In this document: positions 11,707-49,563 of the stretch, piece after piece
Layout of the letters: each line of letters starts with the position of its first letter
Position numbering within the stretch: the first letter of the stretch is position 1
Source of the DNA: Arcticibacter svalbardensis MN12-7
Lineage (GTDB): Bacteria; Bacteroidota; Bacteroidia; Sphingobacteriales; Sphingobacteriaceae
DNA length: 64,000 nucleotides
Assembly: GCF_000403135.1 (NCBI RefSeq)
Contig: NZ_AQPN01000085.1
Span: 1 to 64,000 of the forward strand
Reading direction: 5' to 3'
Notes under the pieces: generated by a model
Seen by the model: only the letters and a program-made list of their open reading frames with translations
What the model was told of the DNA's origin: nothing
The model's database searches: none
Program-made: the position numbers and the translations under genes

Positions 11707-11743
11707 CTCATCACATTAAGATCAGTTAGTGGTAAGATTAAGG

Positions 11744-11846
11744 GTGATGCCACGGTGAGGCCACAGTGACGCCACAGTGAGGCCACCTTTTCCCGCTAAA
11801 ACGTGGCCTCACTGTGGCGTCACCCTAGCATCACTCTGGCATCAAG
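11744..11846. repeat. 11-bp periodic inverted repeat array, element 1
   Basis: Four tandem 11-mers, GTGATGCCACG, GTGAGGCCACA, GTGACGCCACA and GTGAGGCCACC (11744-11787), are followed by a 15-nt spacer and four inverted 11-mers, GTGGCCTCACT, GTGGCGTCACC, CTAGCATCACT and CTGGCATCAAG (11803-11846). Positions 11766-11786 and 11803-11823 are perfectly complementary (21 bp), and pairing continues imperfectly to the outer ends. It is GC-rich against its surroundings. The same design with other sequence occurs at 48620-48706. Function unknown. Confidence 0.85.
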
Positions 11847-47998: not shown

Positions 47999-48571
47999 AT
48001 GCCGGACAAGAAGGAAGTAAGAAAGCAGTATGCTCTAAAAAGACAGCAAATCCACCCCGATCAATTGGAGCAATGGAGTACAGATATCGCCCAACAGTTT
48101 TTTTTAATGAACCTCGATCAGGTTAAATATCTCCATATCTTCTACCCCATCATTGGAAAACAGGAGATCAACTGTCTGCATATTGCCAATCAGATCCGCG
48201 AAAAACATCCGAACATCACCCTTGTACTTCCAAAAAGTAATTTAGCCGACTTTTCACTTCAACATGTTATCTGGAGAGCCGACACCACCTTGGTAATGAA
48301 CGCTTGGGGCATTACCGAACCTCATTCCGAAGAATATGTCCCAGCAGAAAAGATAGATCTGATTCTAATCCCCTTATTGGCATACGACAAGGAGGGGAAC
48401 CGTTTAGGATATGGAAAAGGCTTTTATGATCGGTTCCTGAGCGAGTGCCGCCCCGATGCAGCAAAAGTTGGTCTATCTTATTTTCCACCAGAAGAAAACA
48501 TCCTTCCTCATGATGCACTAGACATCCGACTGGATAGCTGCATTACTCCCGACAAAACCTGGGAATTTTAA
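47999..48571 (+). CDS. 5-formyltetrahydrofolate cyclo-ligase
   Basis: A 190-residue enzyme that converts 5-formyl-THF to 5,10-methenyl-THF with ATP, returning a stable folate to one-carbon metabolism. Motifs: KKEVRKQYALKRQQI near the start, the ILIPLLAYDKEGNRLGYGKGFYDRFL block (about 120-145) typical of the family, and a normal length. Last gene of the lpx operon on the plus strand. Confidence 0.93.
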   Translation: MPDKKEVRKQYALKRQQIHPDQLEQWSTDIAQQFFLMNLDQVKYLHIFYPIIGKQEINCLHIANQIREKHPNITLVLPKSNLADFSLQHVIWRADTTLVMNAWGITEPHSEEYVPAEKIDLILIPLLAYDKEGNRLGYGKGFYDRFLSECRPDAAKVGLSYFPPEENILPHDALDIRLDSCITPDKTWEF

Positions 48572-48619
48572 ACTCATCCAAACTTCTTATTTGATTACTG
48601 TATTGATCTTACCTAACAG

Positions 48620-48706
48620 GCAACTGTGTTGCACCTTCTTCGCATTTCTGATGCTTCGGAGCGGAGAAGGTGCGGAGGAGGTGCGGACAAGGTGCCTATA
48701 ATGTGC
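48620..48706. repeat. 11-bp periodic inverted repeat array, element 2
   Basis: Left units GCAACTGTGTT, GCACCTTCTTC and GCATTTCTGAT (48620-48652) each start with GC at 11-nt steps; right units GGAGAAGGTGC, GGAGGAGGTGC, GGACAAGGTGC and CTATAATGTGC (48663-48706) each end in GC at 11-nt steps. Segments 48631-48643 and 48661-48673 form a 13-bp stem (one G-T pair) round a 17-nt loop. The architecture matches element 1 at 11744-11846. It lies between convergent genes. Confidence 0.8.
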
Positions 48707-48792
48707 GCTTAAATTAATAACGAGATAGTACAAAATCAGCTCGGATGATTGGATCTAAATGCAATAAGTAAGCTGTTGATCTGTAAGTTTTT

Positions 48793-49563
48793 TTAGATAT
48801 CGAACTCTACCAGCACGGGACAGTGGTCTGAATGAATGGCCTGCGACAAGATAGATGACCGTTTTAGAGCGCTTCTCAGCCCTTCTGACGCCAAATTGTA
48901 ATCAATACGCCAGCCCAGGTTCTTAGCGCGTGCCCCAGCCCTGAAACTCCACCAGGTATAATGGTGCGGATCGGGATTAAACTCACGGAACGTGTCGACA
49001 AAACCGGCATTGATAAAGTTTTCCATCCACTCTCTTTCTTCGGGTAAAAAGCCGGAAGAGTTTGCATTTGATTTTGGATTATGGATATCAATGGGTTTAT
49101 GACAAATATTATAATCGCCGGAAATGATCAGGTTGGGACGGCTTAATTTCAGCTGATCGATGTAGACTTGAAAATCTTTCAGGAAGCGATATTTAAAGGC
49201 CTGCCTTAAATCACCACTGGAACCTGAGGGGAAATAGGTACTTAGCACAGAGAAACCCTCAAAATCAGCACGTAATACGCGACCTTCAAAATCATAATCG
49301 CAATCGCCACAGCCGTATTCTACGTGTGTGGGACTTATTTTTGAGAGGATAGCCGTACCACTGTATCCCTTTTTCTGGGCAGGATACCAATAATGTTCAT
49401 AACCTAGTTTTTCTAATAAGGGAAGAGCAGTAATGATTTGATCCGGAGATGCTTTTATTTCCTGAAGGCATACAATATCGGGGTTTGCGGCCTCTAGCCA
49501 GGTAAGCCAGTCTTTACTTAAAGCAGAGCGAATGCCGTTGACGTTATAGGTGATGAGTTTCAT
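48793..49563 (-). CDS. xth: Exodeoxyribonuclease III
   Basis: A 256-residue AP endonuclease/3'-5' exonuclease of the ExoIII family for base excision repair. Motifs: YNVNGIRSA at the start, catalytic Glu in CLQEIKAS (about 32-39), GDYNICH (about 149-155), and the C-terminal SDHCPV with the catalytic His. All catalytic residues are present. Last of three genes that overlap by 4 nt each on the minus strand. Confidence 0.95.
   Translation of the reverse strand: MKLITYNVNGIRSALSKDWLTWLEAANPDIVCLQEIKASPDQIITALPLLEKLGYEHYWYPAQKKGYSGTAILSKISPTHVEYGCGDCDYDFEGRVLRADFEGFSVLSTYFPSGSSGDLRQAFKYRFLKDFQVYIDQLKLSRPNLIISGDYNICHKPIDIHNPKSNANSSGFLPEEREWMENFINAGFVDTFREFNPDPHHYTWWSFRAGARAKNLGWRIDYNLASEGLRSALKRSSILSQAIHSDHCPVLVEFDI

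Follow-up and report, generated by a model that had tools for sequence, protein, structure and literature searches.

The window analyzed here is a 64,000-nucleotide stretch of Arcticibacter svalbardensis MN12-7 (genome G000 in our numbering). A repeat array at 48620-48706, part of what we call element 2, sits in it between two convergent genes (Table 1). An earlier note made from the sequence alone had described GC-led left units, right units recurring every 11 nt, and a 13-bp stem with a 17-nt loop, and all of these are present. Compared with itself at a lag of 11 nt, element 2 matches at 26 of 33 positions, whereas the best of 40 dinucleotide shuffles of the entire 64 kb reached 22, and a scan of the window at one threshold returned three clusters at lag 11 (both arms of another array, element 1, plus element 2) and none at lags 10, 12 or 13. 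Stems with at least 12 of 13 paired positions number 61 in the window, a count in which overlapping registers and element 1 are included, and 0 to 9 per shuffle in 12 shuffles; for element 2 the stem by itself is less telling than the 11-nt periodicity. No Rfam family reached gathering score anywhere in the window, and the element 2 region gave two weak matches, both to eukaryotic families (E 0.42 and 0.77).

Table 1. Features of the window around element 2, and element 1
Feature	Positions	Strand	Basis or remark
Element 1 (type 1), palindromic array of GTGANGCCAC units; plan of element 2, different sequence	11736-11846	+	
Upstream convergent gene, 5-formyltetrahydrofolate cyclo-ligase family	47999-48571	+	Pfam PF01812, E 4.6e-29
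Whole element 2 (type 2)	48603-48723	+	Full-length match to family model R1, 109.4 bits; this copy is also in the training set
Left arm, weaker, inverted; GC-led 11-nt units at 48620, 48631, 48642 and 48653	48620-48658	+	Direct reading; a degenerate inverted unit family-wide
Inverted pair, 13 nt, 12/13 complementary, loop 17 nt	48631-48673	+	Arms 48631-48643 and 48661-48673
Apex GAGC, 5' of the direct array	48659-48662	+	Invariant across 18/18 aligned own-genome copies
Unit 1, GGAGAAGGTGC	48663-48673	+	
Unit 2, GGAGGAGGTGC	48674-48684	+	
Unit 3, GGACAAGGTGC	48685-48695	+	
Unit 4, CTATAATGTGC, diverged last unit	48696-48706	+	
AT-rich right end	48707-48727	+	Side bearing most IS3-type end motifs in other copies; none at the window copy
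Downstream convergent gene, endonuclease/exonuclease/phosphatase family	48793-49563	-	Pfam PF03372, E 6.4e-31

Element 2 is one member of a dispersed family, which we refer to as type 2. BLAST found 18 matches in the same genome, and a model built from those raised the number to 22, with 20 scoring above 80 bits and the remaining two at 44-45; in A. eurypsychrophilus (G001) there are 29 model matches. A pattern search of named genomes, from which own-genome records were possibly excluded, matched only A. eurypsychrophilus MJ9-5 (10 stretches). Among 60 relatives, the own genome included, six match at E 0.001, and across the taxonomic family 13 of 301 genomes match, spread over 6 of the 25 genera sampled; several of these matches lie near threshold, and strict filters were applied. 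Two of the five congeners (G004 and G005) have no match at E 0.001, though a sampled stretch of G004 nevertheless carries one similar array, L185. A second model, R2, matched only the own genome and G667 among 395 genomes of the class with 11 candidates scored per genome, but this search sets no bound on distribution, given that G076 is positive with model R1 yet negative with R2. G667 belongs to a different family within the class, and its 11-nt array of GGTACGAA type, which may be a recent repeat, occurs at three nearly identical places (L275, L277 and L279). Plasmids and phages yielded no match at the sensitivity applied. The copy sets were collected with models trained on the own genome and are biased to similar copies.

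The plan common to these copies is an apex, GAGC, followed by four direct 11-nt units of the form GnnnnAGGTGC, with a weaker arm upstream that is a degenerate inverted version of the unit array; when copies are aligned on GAGC the direct array is conserved and the upstream part variable. Of 57 copies, drawn from five genomes, 49 have four consecutive units with a TG core, 3 have three, 3 have two and 2 have five. This set derives from a pattern search of the fetched loci (58 matches, minus one spurious opposite-strand match at L117) and is without the weak copies L153 (G000) and L222 (G001), L085 (a duplicate of L081), L087 (a different form) and a fifth G011 match that has no locus. Ten further loci from the family-genome search, including two of seven places in G290 and leaving out L079 of G023, extend it to 67 elements. 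In these, the loop of the best pairing is 6-7 nt long in 45, 16-18 nt in 15 and of other lengths in 7, and the best inner pairing averages 15.5, versus 10.2 (SD 2.8) with the left 40 nt shuffled. The window copy has the top inner-pairing score of all 67 (26; the next is 25), so that its 13-bp stem is real, but extreme and atypical of the family; its G001 ortholog has a weaker version of the 13-nt inverted pair. A like plan occurs in other genera with GGTAC, GGTCC or GGTGT as the core instead of GGTGC. The different form at L087 (G003:C329:1653-1770) is a type-2-like GGTAC array with what is apparently a second palindromic 11-nt element at its center (AGTCCAT units, as in L171), that is, nested arrays. 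While the earlier note held that period and inverted design are conserved and sequence is not, within the type-2 family the sequence is conserved as well.

Divergent, co-directional and convergent gene gaps are all represented among the loci, and no rule of gene context was found. Nineteen of the 21 loci examined lie outside called ORFs of at least 80 aa, and the other two are inside a mechanically called ORF. With copies in every orientation of gene gap and two within ORFs, no regulatory logic is visible.

The two closest species share most loci: at 19 of 21 G000 loci (20 fetched plus the window) there is an element-bearing ortholog in A. eurypsychrophilus. Two of the 21 G000 loci and 10 of 29 G001 loci have no ortholog in the fetched sets. 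Gain or loss between these two species was not caught; for the one unmatched copy checked in each direction, the surrounding DNA had no match in the other genome, and the searches returned just element-to-element matches apart from one of 29 nt. In 18 of the 19 shared loci (L153/L127 left out), positions 1, 6, 9, 10 and 11 of units 1 and 2, picked post hoc, differ in only 2 of 180 cells, compared with differences of 27% in the left arm and 13-14% in the flanks, which include coding DNA. A unit shift in some pairs inflates the differences in units 3 and 4, and three rows of a 16-pair comparison (L146, L151 and L153) were mis-anchored or misaligned and are unused. One pair, L137/L128, differs in unit number by a single added unit. 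That the variable positions change faster than neutral is only suggested: position 4, chosen post hoc, changed in 17 of 36 cases against 27% (p 0.013).

Orthology has largely been lost from units 1 and 2 and retained in the left arm. Distances between orthologs and non-orthologs are 0.136 and 0.140 in unit 1, 0.096 and 0.110 in unit 2, and 0.341 and 0.580 in the left arm. Explanations for the lost unit orthology are constraint with few tolerated states, or exchange between copies. Concerted evolution toward species-specific unit types was not significant (p 0.13-0.43); one unit-1 variant, among several examined, is commoner in G000 (7 of 20 copies vs 2 of 28; Fisher p 0.024). At the window locus itself the aligned gene ends are 227 nt apart in both G000 and G001, versus 31 nt in G002, 39 in G003, 1 in G004 and 5 in G005. 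The site is thus empty in four congeners, all at deeper divergence, where exact insert edges and target duplications are unreadable, and this fits insertion in an ancestor of the G000/G001 pair.

We also asked whether the two arms of a copy covary, a check proposed in the earlier note, which had suggested a structural role. Exchanging arms between copies made the fit no worse, whether in G000 (duplex p 0.90 and hairpin p 0.93 for 20 copies) or in G001 (p 0.66 and 0.30 for 28), and the same is true of the inner 14 nt (p 0.16 and 0.90, respectively). RNAalifold on 18 copies returned four pairs, none of them compensated. If a hairpin were selected, own arms should fit best, and they do not; a selected stem at the level of the copy thus finds no support in RNAalifold, swapped-arm energies or inner-arm scores, and pairing is not what element 2 keeps. 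Missing compensatory change between arms, which the earlier note had named as grounds for refuting its view, is therefore what the copies show.

Genomes differ in the core base after T. Most have G there, but G290 has A, whereas G257, G097 and G287 have C, and the changed base is present in both arms in five copies from these four genomes (G290 contributing two nearly identical arrays). Pairing at this position is 0.80 for own arms, 0.82 for arms of the same genome and 0.45 between core types. The pairing of the whole 14-nt arm, compared across all elements except L267 (66 of 67), is 15.61 for own arms, 14.60 within the same genome and 14.73 with a different core. Per position, own and same-genome values are close throughout, the variable positions 4-7 included, with the largest gap (0.12) at position 2. 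The left arms of G290 fit G000 right arms (22.3) as well as they do their own (21). Contrary to the other four genomes, G118 has a different core base in the two arms in two of three copies. A core change in both arms is the pattern that would be expected of inverted binding sites for one trans-acting protein; it is a hint only, because few copies are involved and whole-arm pairing is undiminished when cores differ.

Insertion sequences adjoin a number of these arrays. The first of two seen in the congener G002 has two overlapping ORFs with rve domains in the second, and is presumably of IS3 type. All four of the long copies found adjoin type-2 elements, two with identical flanks, which leaves three independent cases; the copies are 99-100% identical, and the arrays beside them differ except at the one duplicated place. 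The second was seen five times, three of them beside another 11-nt array. Judged by eye, its ends have 3-nt duplications at L253, L254 and L256 and none at L255, where the array is uninterrupted at the place at which L253 and L254 are split. Together the G002 loci L242 to L245 and L253 to L257 show two IS3-type sequences beside 11-nt arrays, one array family being long (unit near CTGTTCGTCAG), and at C1:312687-316484 (L242, L256 and L257) three consecutive insertion sequences adjoin a single type-2 element, which looks like an insertion hot spot.

An IS3-type end motif, defined after seeing examples, lies to the right of the array and faces outward in 11 of the 67 elements, faces inward on the right in none, and faces outward on the left in 2, against a background of 0.0018 per window. 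By this count insertion sequences occur at the element far above background and in fixed orientation. One orthologous pair among the 11 (L136/L114) makes the computed p too small, and the orientation bias holds. The motif is present in seven genomes of three genera; whole insertion sequences are known from G002 alone, and elsewhere the motif only. These observations suggest that insertion sequences choose the element as a target.

Element 1, elsewhere in the window, bears out the earlier note's view that the two elements differ in sequence but share a plan, with 11-nt units in inverted arrangement around a short center, and more such families were found. A search with element 1 gave 17 matches in G000 on both strands together, at about nine places, and further matches in G001, G002 and G004. 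It behaves a little differently from element 2 in that its arms agree above chance at the variable base (27 of 39 cells, where 19.8 would be expected; p 0.003 when pooled, each ortholog being counted separately; per species p 0.08 and 0.02; loci 11736-11846 of the window, L048-L064 and L223-L230). Lag-11 scans of sampled stretches uncovered further arrays at L171 (G000), L185 and L192 (G004), and L194 and L202 (G002). The sequences of L192 and L194 place them in the element 1 and type-2 families, respectively, and L171, L202 and L246/L247/L248 are different-looking families with the same period. The array at L202:122-249 (G002) is inverted, with a like plan and a different unit, near AGCATCTCGTC. 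At the thresholds applied, lag 11 was not commoner in the sampled stretches than some other lags, and the G011 sample had no lag-11 array at the first threshold. The distinguishing mark of these arrays is their inverted, phased form; an unusual frequency is not supported.

The reading that we prefer, and to which we would give slightly less than an even chance, is that element 2 is a dispersed, non-coding, REP-like element that acts as a same-face array of predicted protein-binding sites. Four 11-bp sites, about one per helical turn, would lie on one face of the DNA, with weaker inverted sites across the short apex. A sequence-specific protein encoded elsewhere would bind the array, reading the AGGTGC/G core and reading the nnnn positions little or not at all. 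The element would have spread by insertion, and its arms would be inverted sites rather than a selected hairpin. Counting against this reading, the binding protein was not found, no edges or target duplications of the element could be made out, neither gain nor loss was caught between the two closest species, the loci reveal no regulatory logic, the inner arm pairs above the shuffled null, whole-arm pairing is undiminished between cores, and the arms of G118 disagree. Because of the last two of these we place less weight on the binding array, and on the broader scheme built on it below, and slightly more on three of the alternatives.

One such alternative, which we consider unlikely, is that the element folds as a hairpin in RNA or single-stranded DNA (a cruciform, terminator or mRNA stabilizer), the 11-nt period then being a turn of the duplex helix. 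Inner pairing above the null, the strong stem of the window copy, the five copies, from four genomes with another core, whose two arms share the changed base, and the agreement of element 1 arms all favor it. Against it stand the tests of own against swapped arms (p 0.16 to 0.93), the lack of compensated pairs in RNAalifold and the window's lack of any Rfam match at gathering score. We think it rather improbable that the arrays are parts of IS3-type insertion sequences, which would then produce or transport them rather than just target them. Four of four long copies of one G002 insertion sequence and three of five of a second adjoin arrays, with end motifs always outward; yet nearly identical copies of the first stand beside differing arrays, L255 retains an unbroken array where L253 and L254 are split, and 56 of the 67 arrays, the window's element 2 among them, are without a right-side motif.

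A host function, in which a nucleoid-type protein uses the copies for chromosome organization, partition or regulation and they persist through usefulness rather than through spreading, is in our estimate improbable to a similar degree. The strong constraint on core positions would suit it, as would the presence of an orthologous element for 19 of 21 loci, but copies occur in every gene-pair orientation, two of five congeners have no match at E 0.001 (L185 of the G004 sample notwithstanding), and the window site is empty in four congeners. Least credible, and in our judgment very unlikely, is a neutral tandem repeat produced by slippage or by templated repair, inverted copies included. Eight of 57 copies do have two, three or five units, and L137/L128 differ by a unit, but four-unit copies predominate, core positions are constrained between species and the plan recurs in other genera. 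The templated repeat expansion put forward in the earlier note fits poorly, in view of the 49 four-unit copies and the 19 loci with a sister-species ortholog.

Returning to the array of binding sites, it is tempting to extend it into a broader scheme, one that we regard as doubtful though not fanciful. Sphingobacteriaceae would carry fixed, phased sets of 11-bp sites about an apex, with the core rewritten genome-wide as a trans-acting protein shifts its specificity, and each family of different sequence would represent a paralogous system. One candidate for the protein is a Rep-like initiator able to copy the elements, which would give REP systems a second, RAYT-independent kind, and the arrays could serve as a landing pad for IS3-type elements. 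If the binding array is right, the genome-specific core bases predict a co-evolving DNA-binding protein. The pair of sister species with 19 shared sites offers a clean setting in which to measure how a dispersed repeat is constrained, turns over and loses its orthology.

A literature search for such repeats, by titles and abstract openings, turned up no description of the element. Among known systems it is most like REP and REPIN sequences, in being short, non-coding, dispersed, extragenic, partly inverted and a target of insertion sequences; its dispersed extragenic copies (22 matches, with 19 of 21 loci outside called ORFs) and inverted component agree with that class. REP sequences are described as targets of insertion sequences, the IS3 family included (PMC1525189; PMC3116915), and IS3-family elements inserting into them are known (PMC1525189). 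However, REPs are reported to be 20-40 bp long, whereas element 2 is about 120 bp with phased 11-nt units, and compensatory changes, described as common in REPINs (PMC3116915), are absent from element 2 at copy level. REPs are also said to carry a GTAG or CGTC tag (PMC3733652); an alignment of 18 copies contains no invariant stretch of either, the element ends not being resolved there. Membership fails on the cognate transposase: the REP transposase family Y1 (RAYT, PF01797) is absent from all four genus genomes searched (G000, G001, G002 and G004), with 5 of 14 control genomes positive.

BrickBuilt, a minisatellite-MITE of Porphyromonas gingivalis with 19 copies in one strain (PMC4596501), is likewise described as an intergenic Bacteroidota element with internal tandem units. 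Its units are given as 23 nt, with IS5-type terminal inverted repeats, and it is reported from P. gingivalis and P. gulae, whereas element 2 has 11-nt units, no terminal repeats recognized (its edges being unreadable) and matches in several genera. A third comparison is with the rolling-circle origin of plasmid pMV158. Its RepB is described as binding tandem 11-bp repeats, spaced by a full helical turn, from a single side of the DNA, and the same origin contains a hairpin (PMC9943647); four 11-bp repeats are also reported in pGL2 (PMC3387028). Tandem 11-bp direct repeats of this bind-locus type, four to a copy, are present in 49 of the 57 type-2 copies. In pMV158 the repeats are described as three in number and separated by 84 bp from the nick site, and the plasmid carries an initiator gene of its own, whereas in element 2 four repeats adjoin the apex and the copies are dispersed in the genome. 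In ParR/parC systems the direct repeats are reported to differ in sequence between families, each read by its cognate protein, and those of plasmid R1 to be 11 bp (PMC9426499); parC, though, is described as a plasmid site beside parM and parR, in contrast to the roughly twenty dispersed copies of element 2. RepB of pMV158 and ParR of R1 are precedents in mechanics and no evidence of kinship. If the binding-array reading is right, element 2 would be a Bacteroidota counterpart to REP that, in genomes searched and found without the known REP transposase family, carries a phased binding array.
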